IMG/VR virus record: IMGVR_UViG_3300022072_000047
Span: 1-37,507 of that record
Length of the DNA: 37,507 nucleotides
Source: a virus
Reading direction: 5' to 3' (one strand)
This document shows positions 8,657 to 37,507 of the stretch, in pieces. The notes under the pieces are model-generated. The model had not been told where the DNA came from. It worked only from the letters and a program-made list of their open reading frames with translations, and made no database searches. A program made the translations under genes and the position numbers. How positions within the stretch are numbered: the first letter of the stretch is position 1; each line of letters starts with the position of its first letter.

Positions 8657-9124
8657 TTATTTTAGTTTAATTCCTATTAATAAATTCATTCCTAATGTTT
8701 TTGAAAAGTTGTTATAATCAGCTATAGCTCCAACCCTTATGAAATTTTTCATTGTGTAATTCAGTCCAACACCATAACTATTGAATCCGTCTATGTTTGA
8801 TGATAATGTGAGGAATAACGAGCTAGGTTTAGAAAGTTTTTTATATAGATTTTCTTTTTCAATATACTTTTCTATTTGAGCGTCTTTATTGTTTAATTGG
8901 CTTTCATTATTCTTTTTTATAGATTCGAATAAAGCAATAAGCCTGGTTTGAGTAGCGCTAAGTTCTTGTAGATATTTGTTTTCTTCTAGAAGGATCGGAT
9001 AAGCTAATAATGTTGAAACTATTTCTTGTTTCTGCTCTTTATCAATTCCTTGTATGGGTATGGTTTGAGATAATGCTATCGAGTTTACGCTCAGAGTAAT
9101 CAATAACAATAGAAGGTACTTCAT
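8657..9124 (-). CDS. Secreted coiled-coil / beta protein, outer spanin-like partner
   Basis: A Sec signal peptide (MKYLLLLLITLSVNSIALSQ) is followed by a helical, coiled-coil stretch (about residues 30-98) and a C-terminal third of alternating strands (SLFLTLSSN, YGVGLNYTM, FIRVGAIADY, GMNLLIGIKLK) like the end of a small outer-membrane beta-barrel. There is no lipobox Cys. Its first 83 bases lie out of frame inside the preceding membrane/coiled-coil gene, exactly as Rz1 starts inside Rz. I infer an outer-membrane spanin-like function using barrel strands instead of a lipid anchor. It could instead be an unrelated secreted protein. Confidence 0.6.
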   Translation of the reverse strand: MKYLLLLLITLSVNSIALSQTIPIQGIDKEQKQEIVSTLLAYPILLEENKYLQELSATQTRLIALFESIKKNNESQLNNKDAQIEKYIEKENLYKKLSKPSSLFLTLSSNIDGFNSYGVGLNYTMKNFIRVGAIADYNNFSKTLGMNLLIGIKLK

Positions 9125-10458: not shown

Positions 10459-10716
10459 TTATATACCGAAAATCGATAACGCTTTTTTCAATAGAGATTT
10501 TTCTCCGTCGATTATACCTTTTCTCACTAGTTCATTGTAAATAAATGTAGCTGCAACAACAATGGTTGTTATAACTGTAATGGTTCTATCGCTTAGTCCG
10601 ATTACCGATCCAAATTCGACAGTTGCGTCATTTATAATTGCCAATACCATAAGTATCGTTGCAAATACGCTGCTTTTAGGGTTTTCCGTGTCTACTACTA
10701 GTTTTCTTAATTTCAT
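10459..10716 (-). CDS. Holin-like protein (85 aa)
   Basis: Two hydrophobic helices (residues about 16-33, SSVFATILMVLAIINDA, and 46-62, ITVITTIVVAATFIYNEL) joined by a short loop, with a charged N-terminus and C-terminus, as in class II holins. Its ATG overlaps the endolysin stop (ATGA), so the two are translated together. A holin would form the inner-membrane lesions that set lysis time and release the endolysin, which has no signal peptide of its own. Assigned by topology and context. Confidence 0.65.
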   Translation of the reverse strand: MKLRKLVVDTENPKSSVFATILMVLAIINDATVEFGSVIGLSDRTITVITTIVVAATFIYNELVRKGIIDGEKSLLKKALSIFGI

Positions 10717-11267
10717 ACGTTAAATTTTTGTTTATATTTTTTTAATAATTGTGTTCTGTGTTCTAATCCGTTATATCCACCATTTATTCTTTTGGTAACC
10801 ATTTTTACATCATCATTATCAGCATAGTAGTTTAGATTTCTTTTCTTCCAAAACCATATAGCGCTAATCATAGCGTCAACTTCATCTAGTAATAAATCAG
10901 GATTATTAATGTAATCTATTCCTGTGTCCTCTGTGAGTTCTGTGTAATTAGCTTTTCCGGTTATTTGAATAAAGCCTCTACCTCTATACTTCCATCCGTC
11001 ACCTGACGCTTCATTACCATTATCCATTCTATTTGCGTATACTCTGTTGGCTATAGCTTCAGGGTTTCTAGCGTATTTTGTTGCCAGGCTTTTAGTGAAG
11101 TATTTTTTAAACACACGGATCAGAGCTGAAGCACTATAGTTTAAGTTTTCACTTACAGGCTTAAGATTGCTCTCATGCTCTAATTGAGCAAAAAAATGAG
11201 CTAGTCTTAAAGGTGTTGATATACCTTCTCTAGTCAATATAGTTTTATACTTTGTATGTAATGCCAT
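10713..11267 (-). CDS. Endolysin, glycoside hydrolase family 19
   Basis: Muralytic enzyme of the GH19 chitinase-like/lysozyme class. The start is placed at the ATG at 11267; the frame extends 3 codons to a TTG. The QLEHES motif near residues 28-33 carries the likely general acid Glu, and YRGRGFIQITGKANY is the family hallmark. Tyr/Asn-rich helices and KRINGGYNG follow. At 184 aa it is a bare catalytic domain without a cell-wall-binding repeat or signal peptide, so export should depend on the holin encoded next. It cuts peptidoglycan glycan strands at lysis. Confidence 0.88.
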   Translation of the reverse strand: MALHTKYKTILTREGISTPLRLAHFFAQLEHESNLKPVSENLNYSASALIRVFKKYFTKSLATKYARNPEAIANRVYANRMDNGNEASGDGWKYRGRGFIQITGKANYTELTEDTGIDYINNPDLLLDEVDAMISAIWFWKKRNLNYYADNDDVKMVTKRINGGYNGLEHRTQLLKKYKQKFNV

Positions 11268-11299
11268 TTTAAGCAAAAATAATGATTAATATCTATATA

Positions 11300-12793
11300 T
11301 TAGTTGTTAATAAGCTTTTTCTCACAAAAAGTCCTCCCATTAGAACTATACTGAATAAAATATATTCCAGAACTAAGGTATAGAGTATTTTCTACGTCAA
11401 TCCTTTGTCCAAGCATGTTAAAATACTTCACGTCTAGTTTGGTATCTAGTTCGGTATCTAGTTCGGTAATGGATAGTGATTTTTGAGGATATTTAGCAAA
11501 CCATGCTGGCGCTATATTCGGAAACTGAGATTCTAAATCTGAATCATACCACCAAGAATTAAACGCGAACATTGTTCCGTCTCTACTTATAGAAGCGTAT
11601 AATCCTTCTTCTCTAGATGGTATTCTATTTGCATTGGTTCTTAAAAAGTACTGCATATCGTTTGTATCATCATAATCTAAACGAATAGATATAATATCTT
11701 TAGATATAGCGTTATCCCTACTACAGCAGTTCTCTATAACATAAGCGTATCCTGGCCTGTTGGTATTAGTGCATGATATATAACCTCCATACAGCCCTCT
11801 TGCTAACCCATCGGCTCCAGTATCTTTGAATTTATAAACTGTTTCTCCGTCTCTAATTCTAGACATAATTAAAAAGGTATCATCATCTTCTGTCATGCAA
11901 TCGGCTGGGCATCCAGAAGCTCCGTCTTTATATCCAAGGTACACATCTTCCCCATAAATATCTAAACCCAAACCAGCATGTGCTTCGGTATAGTTTACTA
12001 CTCTGTAATTTGAAGGAGTGTCTCGTGTGTTGTCATATGCTACAATTGCGTTTCCATTCCAAGAATTTAATTCTAAGTTATCAAAATACGCTATAACAAA
12101 GTAATCCCCTGTCGGTGAAATAGATACCCAATCAATAATATTGTCGTTATCTATATCCATCCTAGAATGAATATTGCTAGGCTGATTAGGGTTGTCTCTA
12201 GTGTCTTCTAAATCCATAATGATAGCTTCGTAAGGAGAGCCTGAATATGGCGCTCTCTTAGTGGCTGTTATGGCCATGTATTTATCATCCCAACTTATTG
12301 TGCCTTCATTGTTTCCAAGACTGATATCCGTGTGAGTTTCTGTAAAGTCATGAAGCAAGTCTTCCGATCCATAAGGATTAGGGAAATACTGCGCTTTTAA
12401 AGAAACATCGTTACTATTTCTAAAGAAGACATATAGCAAGTCAGGATTAGTGTTTGACCAATAACCTCCGTTTTCAACTCCTATATGTATAATGTTAGAA
12501 GGGTTCGCGACTTCGACAAACCCATTGCCACTAAAGCTGCTAACAAATTTCATCCAAGTGTCATTAGCGTTATATACCGGTATTTTTGAATATTGTACAC
12601 TAAATCTTGATGCTCCGTTCGGAGCTATTCTTTGAATTAAAGCTCCTGTGTTTGGGTCTGTATATTCTTCGTTAATCTCAGGGGTGTAATTTGGAGTTTC
12701 TACATTACCCCAAGGATATGTATCTATGTTTAAAATCGCTGGATAATCCTGAGCAAATACACTAAACCCTAAAAGAATTAATAAATACTTCAT
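11300..12793 (-). CDS. Secreted beta-propeller-like protein with T9SS-type C-terminal sorting signal
   Basis: Start chosen at the ATG at 12793, where a signal peptide begins (MKYLLILLGFSVFAQ); an in-frame ATG also lies at 12826 behind an A-rich leader. The body (about 420 aa) has repeats of the type 'S.dG.y..f' (SISPTGDYFVIAYF, SISRDGTMFAFNSWW), suggesting a TolB/PD40-like beta-propeller, with several Cys pairs. After a repeated LDTELDTKLD linker comes a type A sorting-like tail: YFNMLGQRI, then LSSGIYFIQY, then a Lys-rich end. Such tails send proteins through the Bacteroidota type IX system to the cell surface. It sits between fibre genes and endolysin. Whether it binds sugar, cleaves capsule or blocks superinfection is unknown. 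Confidence 0.75.
   Translation of the reverse strand: MKYLLILLGFSVFAQDYPAILNIDTYPWGNVETPNYTPEINEEYTDPNTGALIQRIAPNGASRFSVQYSKIPVYNANDTWMKFVSSFSGNGFVEVANPSNIIHIGVENGGYWSNTNPDLLYVFFRNSNDVSLKAQYFPNPYGSEDLLHDFTETHTDISLGNNEGTISWDDKYMAITATKRAPYSGSPYEAIIMDLEDTRDNPNQPSNIHSRMDIDNDNIIDWVSISPTGDYFVIAYFDNLELNSWNGNAIVAYDNTRDTPSNYRVVNYTEAHAGLGLDIYGEDVYLGYKDGASGCPADCMTEDDDTFLIMSRIRDGETVYKFKDTGADGLARGLYGGYISCTNTNRPGYAYVIENCCSRDNAISKDIISIRLDYDDTNDMQYFLRTNANRIPSREEGLYASISRDGTMFAFNSWWYDSDLESQFPNIAPAWFAKYPQKSLSITELDTELDTKLDVKYFNMLGQRIDVENTLYLSSGIYFIQYSSNGRTFCEKKLINN
11433..11468 (-). repeat. Three 12-bp tandem repeats encoding an acidic linker
   Basis: Three 12-base units (TCTAGTTCGGTA on the plus strand, one with a base change) encode an LDTE/LDTK repeat that joins the propeller-like body to the sorting-like tail. 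The repeat is in frame, so copy-number change would only alter linker length. Confidence 0.8.
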
Positions 12794-12845
12794 AGTGCTA
12801 TTTCTACATCCTACTAAATTTTTCATGTTATTTATTATTTATTAT

Positions 12846-13358
12846 TTATATTCTAAATATTCTACGAGCGCCTCCTGGTACGTTAGGAACTTCTAACTCA
12901 GCCCACGAAACTGCTCCTCCTCGTCTATTTGCTCCTGGGCCACCTCCAGAAGCTGGAAAATCAACTCTTATTCTTAAATCTGTATAATCAGTAATACTAT
13001 TAGCTTCTCCTGCACTTAAAGTATATGCTAAAGTTACGAATCCTAACAAATCTGCGTTTGTTCCTAAAGTAGCAATTAAGGTTACTCCTTGATATAGATA
13101 CGCTGTTCCTGCTTGAGTATTACCATCTGTAGAGGGTGCTACGTTTGTATCTGATTTTCCCCAACGAACTCTAACTATATGACCTATTGCGCTTACAGGA
13201 TCAGTCACATCACTCAATCCACATTCGTAAACGGCTGTTGTATTATCATTTGAAGTTAAGTAATCAGCGTCACTAAAACTTACTTCGTCAATATCTGTAA
13301 AACCACCAACTATTTCAGTAGTGGTAATATCTGAATCTGGTCTACCGAATTGCGCCAT
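12846..13358 (-). CDS. Phage structural protein (MAQFGRP family)
   Basis: Begins MAQFGRPDSD and contains EVSFSDADYLTS, YECGLSDVTDP and ITDYTDLRIRV, ending in VSWAELEVP. This pattern recurs in small beta-sandwich proteins found among tail-fibre genes of many tailed phages. They are probably trimeric decoration or receptor-binding components at the tail tip, but no function is proven. The 170-aa length is typical. It starts 3 bases after the large fibre gene stop, so the two are probably co-translated. Confidence 0.65.
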   Translation of the reverse strand: MAQFGRPDSDITTTEIVGGFTDIDEVSFSDADYLTSNDNTTAVYECGLSDVTDPVSAIGHIVRVRWGKSDTNVAPSTDGNTQAGTAYLYQGVTLIATLGTNADLLGFVTLAYTLSAGEANSITDYTDLRIRVDFPASGGGPGANRRGGAVSWAELEVPNVPGGARRIFRI

Positions 13359-13361
13359 ATC

Positions 13362-15644
13362 TTATGAGTTTATGTAATATTCAACTGTTAGCGTTAATTC
13401 ATCTACCGTTCCGCTTACTGCGTTTATCTCAACCCAAAGCGCACTTTTCTCAACAGGTAAATTATTACTAAAAGCTGTTTGTTCTTGAAACGTTGTTGTA
13501 CTCGTTGTAACAACATCTGCTGCTGTTAAATCAGAACCTGCCGCACTTCTATCAAGAGCGTGTTTAATTCTCCAATCGACTGATGGGGTTGAACTTCCTC
13601 TTAAATTATGATAAACTGCCGCAATAGTAACTTTATCTCTAGCAAGCATTCCGAAAGAAATATCATCAGAAACCGCTGGGTTTTCTATTACTAAAGTAGC
13701 TGTCTGTAATCCTGTATGTATTTGATTTGTTCTACCCGCAATATTTGTAGAAATATTTGCATTTGTATTTATAATATTTAATTGATTTGTTCTTAACTCT
13801 ATTATTTTAGCAGCGTTATTTACTAATATTCTAGTGGCGTTACTTACTAAAGTAGTATCTCCTATTAATATATCTCCCCAAAGATTTTGCATTGTTATTT
13901 TAGTATTAGCCATATCAACAAAAACTTGAATGTTTTTACCACTAGCTACCTCTTCAGAAATTAATTGTACTCCACTAGCATTTGACTGCATTATCCCAAA
14001 ATGAAGTCCGCCTGCATCATATGTTTTTGCACTTATTTCATTCTTACTATCCCAAACTGTAAGCAAGGTTTGTAAACCTAAAAGTTTTGTATCTCCAAGA
14101 AGAACAGAGCCTCCTGCATCTATTGCGTTTAAATTAATTTGTTCGCCATTCGCATCAATATAAGCGGTAGTTGCATTATCCCCTATCATATAAGTTCTAC
14201 CTCCAAACATAACAATATTGCTATTGCCTTGTATTAACCTCAATAGATTAGATGCTTGGTTTAAGTTTATGTAACAAGCTGTTCCACTACTATTTCCTAC
14301 AAAAAACTCTTTAGTAGCATCATTCCAAATTAAATCAGCCGAAGCTCCAAAAGCACCTGCTTCATTATATTGAATCTGCGTGGTAGTACCTGCTGGCGAT
14401 GTTGCTGCTACTGGTGTGGTAATATCTAATAAGTCAAAATCAATCGCTGTTAATACTATTGTTCCTCCTACCCCTACTGTTTCAGGTAGCGATCCAACAT
14501 ATTGGTAAAGCTTTTCAGAACCACTTATCACACATGTAAAATAGTAAGTTGTTCCATCGGCAAGTAAGTTCTCCCAAGTAATCGTTGCAGGGTCTATAGC
14601 GTTTATATAATCCTCAATAGTAGAGGCTCCAATATCTCCTAAGTCAATATATTCAGAGGTTGCAGGTGGTGCTATAAAATTTGGTAATACAAAATATTCT
14701 CTTAGTATTAAATCATTTTCAGAAATTACACCATTTAAACTTGCGTTACCCCATGCTCCAAGAATATTATTTTTTGCGAAGTCATAATAATTACGCTGCA
14801 ACCTTGTAACACCTCCTACCTCAACAAAAATAAGTAAACTAAATTTTATTAATTGGTTGTTAGTTACAGTAAATCCTACCGTATTTATTGCTGATACAAT
14901 TTCAGTAAGTGTCGTTATACTTCCTAATGTTGCGTTTAATGCTGAAGAACCAAAATCTTGAACAAGATAGCCAGGTGTTTGTTGCGCTGGTATTGTTCCT
15001 GTAAAATTAACGATTGGGTTTTCAGGGTCTGTTGCATCAACAGTAATATCGGTTCCGGATTGCACACTATCTACTTGACCTCCTATTGTTCCTGTAAAAT
15101 TAACGATTGGGTTTTCAGGGTCTGTTGCATCAACAGTAATATCGGTTCCGGATTGCACACTATCTACTTGACCTCCTAATGTACCTGTAAAATTAACGAT
15201 TGGGTTAACAGGGTCTGTTGCATCAACAGTAATATCGGTTCCGGATTGCACACTATCTACTTGACCTGACCCTCCTCCACCTACAGGAGCGAATAACAAA
15301 CCGTCTCCACCTTCTGTGATTGAGTTGGACGGATCGCTACTGATTAAGTCAGCTATTACAACCTCTCCGTCCTCTCTAAAAGCTGGATATCCTAAGTTTA
15401 TTAGCCTTTGGAATAATAATATTCCTGAAGCAAAGCTCTCAACACCTCCTCCTGAAGAGTCATCAACTATACTTACTTCGCTATAAATCCAAGAACCTCT
15501 TTTAGCTCCATTGGGTTCTACTAACAATAAGTAGTCTCCATCGACTTTTGCTGTTAGTTTAGATAAACCAAAGACAAGACTACCGCTTTCTGTTGGATAG
15601 TGAAAGAAATTTTTATTACCTTTTTTTCTAATAGTTAATGCCAT
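13362..15644 (-). CDS. Tail fibre / tail-tip protein with 31-aa repeats
   Basis: A 760-aa fibre-type protein. Near residues 126-218 it carries three almost identical 31-residue repeats (QVDSVQSGTDITVDATDP, then NPIVNFTGT), a motif common in phage fibres. A TQIQYNEAGAFGASADLIW motif follows, also typical of fibre shafts, then many short beta repeats (NQLNIINTNANIST) like a beta-helix or triple-beta shaft. The C-terminal part is a beta-rich head ending in LTLTVEYYINS. Likely trimeric and involved in host recognition. No chaperone-type autoproteolytic domain is recognised. Confidence 0.75.
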   Translation of the reverse strand: MALTIRKKGNKNFFHYPTESGSLVFGLSKLTAKVDGDYLLLVEPNGAKRGSWIYSEVSIVDDSSGGGVESFASGILLFQRLINLGYPAFREDGEVVIADLISSDPSNSITEGGDGLLFAPVGGGGSGQVDSVQSGTDITVDATDPVNPIVNFTGTLGGQVDSVQSGTDITVDATDPENPIVNFTGTIGGQVDSVQSGTDITVDATDPENPIVNFTGTIPAQQTPGYLVQDFGSSALNATLGSITTLTEIVSAINTVGFTVTNNQLIKFSLLIFVEVGGVTRLQRNYYDFAKNNILGAWGNASLNGVISENDLILREYFVLPNFIAPPATSEYIDLGDIGASTIEDYINAIDPATITWENLLADGTTYYFTCVISGSEKLYQYVGSLPETVGVGGTIVLTAIDFDLLDITTPVAATSPAGTTTQIQYNEAGAFGASADLIWNDATKEFFVGNSSGTACYINLNQASNLLRLIQGNSNIVMFGGRTYMIGDNATTAYIDANGEQINLNAIDAGGSVLLGDTKLLGLQTLLTVWDSKNEISAKTYDAGGLHFGIMQSNASGVQLISEEVASGKNIQVFVDMANTKITMQNLWGDILIGDTTLVSNATRILVNNAAKIIELRTNQLNIINTNANISTNIAGRTNQIHTGLQTATLVIENPAVSDDISFGMLARDKVTIAAVYHNLRGSSTPSVDWRIKHALDRSAAGSDLTAADVVTTSTTTFQEQTAFSNNLPVEKSALWVEINAVSGTVDELTLTVEYYINS
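14992..15267 (-). repeat. Three 93-bp tandem repeats in the fibre gene
   Basis: Units start 93 bases apart (the same 10-mer begins at 15001, 15094 and 15187) and differ at only a few positions, mainly near the unit edges. The period is 31 codons, so the frame is kept. Near identity at the DNA level points to recent duplication or gene conversion. Confidence 0.9.
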
Positions 15645-15646
15645 AA

Positions 15647-16681
15647 TTATCTTGCTTTATGTGTTCTTGTTATTATATATCTAATGTCATAAACAGCTAT
15701 ATCTTCGTTTGTAGATAAAATCTTTACCGTTCCACCGTTTGCTTCCCATGTTCCTAAAGTGTAAGCGTCAAATGATTTTAAAAAATAATGTTCCACACCA
15801 CTTCCTTTTGATAAAGAGAATTCGCTTTCGTATATTTTACCAACAGCGCCACCGATATCTATACTTGTCTTTAACCTAGGGTCTGCTCCTACTCCTAAAG
15901 GTTTACAATGAAGTTCAATAGTTATATTAACACCGTCTCCATCCCTTCCTGTTATTACAGTTCCATCATAGAAAGTGTTTACATCAAGTGGTTTTTGTAG
16001 TTCATAAGAATTTAAAGCATCATTAGGCAGGGAAATCTCTACTCCATCAACTAGTGTTAATGGCGCACCTTCAGTATAAAGTGTGTCTGCATAATTACCC
16101 CAACCGGTATAGATGTTAAAAAGATTTCCTTGAGGTTTATTGTAGCTCGCTACAGCACCATCACCGTCTAACCTATTGGTGTCATGCAACATCATACCGT
16201 CAATAAACACGGTTTCACTAGCACCAACACCATTGGTAGCATCAAAAGTAAATGTAAAAGTTACAACATCACCTAGAAACAACACATATGGAATATCACT
16301 TACAAAACGATGCCATTCTTGATTTTCTGTAGTCGGCAATGCCCATGCTTGGGTGTCTATTAATATTCCGTTTACAAATATTTTAACGTTTCCTGTATAG
16401 TCGTCAGTAGCTGAAAGTCTATACATGTAAAAAGACAATAAACATCTACCAGCTTTTAGAGATATAATTGTGTCTTGTATACTATTAGAAACTGTTATAG
16501 GGTTCGCTAAGTCGGTATTTTGTATCTTCAAAGCTCTTTCTCCTTCAAAAACAAAGTCCTCTGAATGAATAGCGCTTCCTGTTCCTGATGGTACCGTCCA
16601 TGAGCCAGCGTTGTTAAACGCTAGGTATGGGTCTATTATGTTGTCGCTGTAATTAACTGCTTTTCTTGTAGTTTGTATCAT
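15647..16681 (-). CDS. Tail protein with carbohydrate-binding-like domain
   Basis: The N-terminal half (about residues 15-175) has the jelly-roll look of a carbohydrate-binding module: GSWTVPSGTG, FVFEGERALKIQN, then ISLKAGRCLLSFYMYRL, VKIFVNGILIDTQ and ETVFIDGMMLHD. The second half is also beta-rich, with GRDGDGVNITIELHC. It is compactly packed (2 bases from the fibre gene). A role in binding host surface glycans at the tail tip is inferred from fold and location. No catalytic motif is seen. Confidence 0.6.
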   Translation of the reverse strand: MIQTTRKAVNYSDNIIDPYLAFNNAGSWTVPSGTGSAIHSEDFVFEGERALKIQNTDLANPITVSNSIQDTIISLKAGRCLLSFYMYRLSATDDYTGNVKIFVNGILIDTQAWALPTTENQEWHRFVSDIPYVLFLGDVVTFTFTFDATNGVGASETVFIDGMMLHDTNRLDGDGAVASYNKPQGNLFNIYTGWGNYADTLYTEGAPLTLVDGVEISLPNDALNSYELQKPLDVNTFYDGTVITGRDGDGVNITIELHCKPLGVGADPRLKTSIDIGGAVGKIYESEFSLSKGSGVEHYFLKSFDAYTLGTWEANGGTVKILSTNEDIAVYDIRYIITRTHKAR

Positions 16682-37346: not shown

Positions 37347-37507
37347 GGTGCATGGTATCAGGTGCATTGTATCAGGTGCATTGTATCAGGTGCATTGTAT
37401 CAGGTGCATTGTATCAGGTGCATTGTATCAGGTGCATTGTATCAGGTGCATTGTATCAGGTGCATTGTATCAGGTGCATTGTATCAGGTGCATTGTATCA
37501 GGTGCAT
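37347..37507. repeat. 14-bp tandem repeat running to the window end
   Basis: Eleven full copies of GGTGCATTGTATCA plus 7 bases, starting at 37347. The first copy has one base change and the rest are identical. The array continues past the window end, so the total number is unknown. 14 is not a multiple of 3, so it is not a simple coding repeat. It may mark a genome end or an assembly break. Confidence 0.95.

Follow-up and report, generated by a model that had tools for sequence, protein, structure and literature searches.

The gene at positions 11300..12793 (minus strand) of the window, a virus record of 37,507 bases, probably encodes a late cargo of the host type IX secretion system (T9SS). 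Its predicted architecture is that of a signal peptide, a secreted body and an added sorting module, and the two host address labels imply that the protein probably serves the virus by coating or altering the outside of the infected cell. The gene is real and lies where a previous sequence-only reading had placed it, but on the minus strand, in an open reading frame that extends from an ATG at 12826 to 11300 (508 aa). The second in-frame ATG at 12793, taken as the start by that reading, yields a protein of 497 aa with a clean, compact signal peptide, and this internal ATG, rather than the one at 12826, is the likely start codon.

The signal peptide that had been proposed was recovered at the N-terminus by inspection of the sequence and a regular-expression scan: MKYLLILLGFSVFA (12752..12793, minus strand) is a predicted Sec signal peptide that ends in Ala, with cleavage before a Gln at position +1, and obeys the Q-rule described for signal peptides of Bacteroidota (PMC5837995). 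The body, a probable beta-propeller, spans approximately residues 15–430 (11504..12751, minus strand), and the putative type-A-like T9SS C-terminal sorting domain (CTD), as delimited by profile matches and motifs, spans approximately residues 435–497 (11303..11491, minus strand). At the junction of the body and the sorting domain, a 12-bp unit repeated three times in tandem (11433..11468, minus strand) encodes an acidic linker, TELD-TELD-TKLD. The GC content and codon use of the gene are the same as those of its neighbours and of the phage, so that nothing marks it plainly as newly acquired or as joined in by the assembly; promoter-like matches were near chance.

The putative C-terminal sorting tail

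The C-terminus is as previously described, with VKYFNMLGQRI followed further downstream by LSSGIYFIQYSSNGRTFCEKKLINN, so that a type-A-like T9SS tail stands at the exact end of the protein. Profile searches, which had been suggested as a check, placed both TIGR04183 and PF18962 at this exact C-terminus, but both scored below their curated cut-offs. TIGR04183, the T9SS type A sorting domain, was the only NCBIfam match (E = 0.0022, residues 454–505 of 508; 18 bits against a curated cut-off of 23), and PF18962 was the best Pfam match (E = 0.0036, residues 458–506; 18 bits against a curated cut-off of 27); these E-values are corrected for 18,950 NCBIfam and 24,736 Pfam models, and the single-hypothesis E is ~1e-7. 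A six-frame search of the whole record recovered the sorting domain with E = 2.9e-5, and the same search gave no match at E <= 0.1 in any of 50 records of endolysin-related phages, a threshold at which sub-cut-off TIGR04183 matches were also found in control genomes without known T9SS (megabase search sizes). The positive controls scored above the cut-off; they comprised the records of two huge phages, a phage contig from faeces and plasmids of Bacteroidota.

Further statistics were obtained with models from independent loci. A model built from 14 independent CTDs, taken from the positive-control loci, ranked the cargo ORF first among 3,719 phage ORFs (E = 0.012), and with this model the tail scored 18.0 bits against 13.1 bits for the best of 20,000 shuffles, all of which were lower. 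Alignment of the tail with 12 CTDs by hhalign gave 94% (E = 1.5e-7), compared with <=2.6% for five control C-termini (three others from the window, one from a bacterial relative of the body and one from a related-phage fibre). By these measures, the C-terminus is significantly similar to real type A CTDs. That the resemblance is due to chance, or that host DNA was joined to the phage by assembly, is highly improbable: the gene is known from a single contig and no second viral copy was found in viral contigs, but the six-frame, decoy, shuffle and hhalign results speak against such an origin, as do a composition matching that of the neighbours and flanks that are both syntenic, in the same order, with Olleya phage Harreka_1.

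Type A tails are described by motifs A–E. Experiments single out D (GIY) and E (terminal lysines) as the most important, and a 22-residue segment at the end of one CTD, comprising motifs D and E, is enough for the secretion of GFP (PMC10202324). In the phage protein, motif A (YPNP) is absent or degenerate (YPQKSL, residues 435–440), and the hhalign alignment begins at profile column 19; motif B, the strand with G followed by Q, K or R, is present (KYFNMLGQRI), and motifs D (GIYFIQY) and E (CEKKLINN, with terminal Lys) are intact. The missing YPNP and the sub-cut-off scores, together with the adjoining endolysin gene, could indicate that the protein is exported by Sec with a divergent tail that is dead for T9SS and that it works only as a periplasmic protein, for instance in controlling lysis. 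We consider this quite unlikely, since the two motifs that are intact are those found to be required or sufficient in experiments (PMC10202324), and the last residues of the protein would be expected to decay without selection. We infer, rather, that the tail is functional as a T9SS sorting domain.

The body and its bacterial relatives

Homologues of the body, with 21–29% identity, were found as secreted proteins in 3 of the 392 genomes sampled from a single phylum, that of the genome of contig L002 and probably Planctomycetota; the search reached one genome first (29%) and two more with a two-row alignment. All three relatives (L125, L128 and the partial L127) stop near phage residue 430 without a CTD, the N-termini of L125 and L128 are signal-peptide-like by eye, and the CTD profile did not match the C-terminus of a bacterial body relative. 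Because the bacterial relatives end before the CTD, this domain appears to be a separate, added module. Searches with the full protein, two fragments and the alignment found no relative of the body in the phage, plasmid and viral-contig collections, and the body had no sequence match in NCBIfam, PHROG or the PDB and no Pfam match above the cut-off. A GH25 Pfam match (14 bits, E = 0.06) was rejected because its score is below the cut-off and it falls in the body, whose homologues are not GH25 proteins, and a match to a genome contig (L002) was spurious, comprising 21 residues antisense to another gene.

The beta-propeller fold that had been suggested for the body is plausible: a profile of the four body sequences found WD40 propellers as its best matches in the PDB, with weak E-values of 0.008–0.02, but no Pfam propeller family matched and internal repeats were not significant. 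Structure prediction, another check that had been put forward, was run with AlphaFold without relatives and gave no confident model for the full protein (pLDDT 30) or for the CTD alone (pLDDT 48). A beta-propeller is a likely fold for the body.

The bacterial relatives contain invariant His and Asp/Glu columns of the kind expected at a catalytic or metal-binding site, and their four invariant His correspond to H272, Y338, N387 and Y399 in the phage protein, which thus keeps one. A lead for the body was the PL22 oligogalacturonate-lyase-like propeller, which has metal-binding histidines; it was abandoned, as neither the phage protein nor its relatives matched a Pfam lyase model and the His are replaced. 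More broadly, no CAZy-type Pfam or NCBIfam family matched the phage body or the bacterial relatives above the cut-off. The loss of three of the four His favours binding over catalysis and makes the previously suggested modification of glycans less likely than binding; if the histidines form the site of the family, the phage body would be a binder more than an enzyme, a comparison drawn from few, distant sequences.

The invariant columns of the relatives, and the endoglucanase and GH39 protein among the published T9SS cargos of phages (PMC7468147), would suit a T9SS cargo that is itself an enzyme, that is, a secreted propeller with lyase or hydrolase activity against the polysaccharide of capsule or matrix, serving progeny release or host feeding. 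Given the Tyr, Asn and Tyr in place of His and the lack of a CAZy-type match, such an activity is unlikely, and enzymatic capsule loosening is nevertheless the main rival to receptor masking. At L128:2034-3395 (minus strand), a gene lying beside one of the bacterial relatives resembles by eye a pectate-lyase-type beta-helix protein, which hints at polysaccharide work for the body family. A family with bacterial relatives and altered candidate-site residues in the phage offers a handle on what phages aim at outside the cell.

Genomic setting and other exported phage proteins

The cargo gene is flanked by same-strand genes with short gaps on both sides, and its placement between fibre genes and a GH19 endolysin, as previously read, was borne out by family matches and by comparison with Harreka_1. 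The GH19-type endolysin (10713..11276, minus strand; PF00182, E = 1.5e-9; phrog_181 endolysin, E = 2e-79) lies 24 bases downstream and is 70% identical to that of Harreka_1; it is followed by a possible holin (10459-10716; weak Holin_SPP1 match, E = 0.015), with small membrane-like genes beyond. Upstream are a 170-aa protein (12846..13358, minus strand) that is unrelated to gp14, its positional counterpart in Harreka, a fibre-like protein (13362..15644, minus strand) that is homologous and syntenic with Harreka_1 gp13 (29%, E = 7e-27), and a tail/fibre-module protein (phrog_8270; 15647..16681, minus strand) that is syntenic with Harreka_1 gp12 (28%, E = 2e-18). In Harreka_1, two genes lie between the gp13 fibre and the endolysin; gp15 encodes a membrane-like protein of 123 aa. 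The flanks are therefore Harreka-like in order and strand but the contents differ, which points to a late region that is conserved except for one variable slot. The contiguous same-strand genes that run from the fibres to the lysis cassette support the late position of the cargo gene, which would accordingly be expressed late, as had been supposed.

The capsid and tape-measure proteins of the window have their closest matches in Polaribacter phages P12002L/S, with 79% and about 43% identity; TIGR04183 did not match in P12002L/S. Polaribacter, Olleya and Cellulophaga are the hosts of the nearest isolates and, judged from these similarities, the cargo gene sits inside the genome of a phage with a Bacteroidota host. 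Repeats were observed at two places in the window. Within a fibre gene, a 93-bp unit is repeated three times (14991-15267; 97%), and another contig (L003/L008), whose capsid and tail protein are identical to those of the window, breaks off within these repeats, near window position 15,100; a 14-bp repeat (37347-37507; 11.5 copies, 99% identical) reaches the end of the contig.

Proteins of 580–1117 aa with Q-rule signal peptides, e.g., MKKILFLLLITVASYG before Gln, were observed 5′ of the endolysin in eight related viral contigs (L028:3623-5365, L038:728-2518, L039:3778-5748, L045:3500-6118, L047:3501-5903, L050:3591-6422, L052:2906-5899 and L055:194-3547). Three of them are strong PHROG tail-fibre matches, and the others match beta-helix, GDSL or spike families. 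Signal peptides on tail fibres were unexpected, and a literature search gave no relevant report. As Q-rule signal peptides are found on tail fibres of related phages too, the signal peptide of the cargo protein alone is no proof of a non-virion role, and these fibre-like proteins in the same region, like the location of the gene in the fibre module, could be taken to mean that it encodes a virion component, namely a tail-module protein that is an accessory fibre or binds receptors and whose C-terminal likeness is a remnant or a fibre tip. This is quite unlikely, considering that the cargo protein has no PHROG tail match and no PHROG or Pfam fibre match, that its body is homologous to bacterial secreted proteins and not to phage fibres, and that neither the related-phage fibres nor the window's own fibres have a sorting domain.

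Smaller exported proteins were also seen. The window encodes, at 8657-9124 (minus strand), a second exported protein of this phage, 155 aa long, with the signal peptide MKYLLLLLITLSVNSIALS before Gln, a coiled middle and a C-terminus like a small outer-membrane strand set, with no family match. In related contigs, proteins of ~157 aa at L036:13510-13983 and L040:9876-10355 have Q-rule signal peptides and end in Phe, as small outer-membrane barrels do.

Proposed route and comparison with known systems

The sequence evidence suggests a route of three steps. In the first, the Q-rule Sec signal peptide would direct the protein to the periplasm; in the second, the host T9SS would recognise the type-A-like tail, whose first strands are divergent and whose GIY and terminal Lys-Lys are intact, and the protein would cross the outer membrane to be released or anchored. 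Export by Sec and subsequent movement by the host T9SS via the tail are, taken jointly, likely to our judgement. In the third step, the body may bind a glycan or receptor at the surface of the infected cell, most likely for masking receptors against competing phages or for stopping progeny from re-binding the dying cell. Receptor masking fits the late timing and the loss of the candidate site, and we put this exact role of the body, binding and masking at the surface, forward as a tentative possibility. The gene itself probably arrived by recombination into the variable slot that separates the fibre module from the endolysin. A wider and more speculative proposal, which we hold to be doubtful, is that flavophages keep a cassette slot, placed between fibre module and endolysin, for exports that bear host address tags, with a T9SS-displayed, non-catalytic propeller serving here as an extracellular receptor mask; if this is true, the propeller would coat the dying cell or free receptor, and progeny and rivals would be unable to bind.

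Phage-encoded T9SS cargo is not unprecedented (PMC7468147; PMC6949934), and what is new here is the body and the divergent tail. Cryophage carries three T9SS type A cargos, a case that its authors called a unique occurrence and for which they proposed that hijacking of the host T9SS serves to exclude superinfection or to compete (Bellas et al., 2020; PMC7468147). In both cases, genes in variable slots of a Bacteroidota phage carry a sorting domain of T9SS type A; by comparison of descriptions, Cryophage (MT820023) differs in its 76-kb circular genome and in its bodies, which are an endoglucanase, a GH39 protein and a PA14 protein. Cluster 2 of the BACON crAss-like phages encodes T9SS sorting-domain proteins (de Jonge et al., 2019; PMC6949934), which likewise lie near structural genes, but these are gut phages in which BACON domains are involved and the genes are sited by the head section. 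Huge uncultured phages of ~0.64 Mb (L018 and L019; LR745206 and LR756502) also have TIGR04183 domains above the curated cut-off. Phages of Porphyromonas gingivalis encode Q-rule secreted proteins that were proposed to modify the host envelope (PMC10367356); they resemble the present phage in having genes with Q-rule signal peptides, and that report names neither T9SS nor type IX.

At the level of domains, the tail agrees with the type A CTDs of PF18962/TIGR04183 in its C-terminal position, its motifs B, D and E and its companion signal peptide, and differs from members of these families in its degenerate motif A and its scores under the curated cut-offs. The bacterial family of L125, L128 and L127 shares the homologous body and, in L125 and L128, the signal-peptide-like N-terminus, but it lacks the CTD and keeps the four invariant His, compared with one in the phage protein. 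That phages use the type IX route has so far been proposed from sequence, and the new candidate adds the late operon of a small flavophage, in which a virus of marine flavobacteria would place both address labels in one protein, encoded just before the lysis gene.
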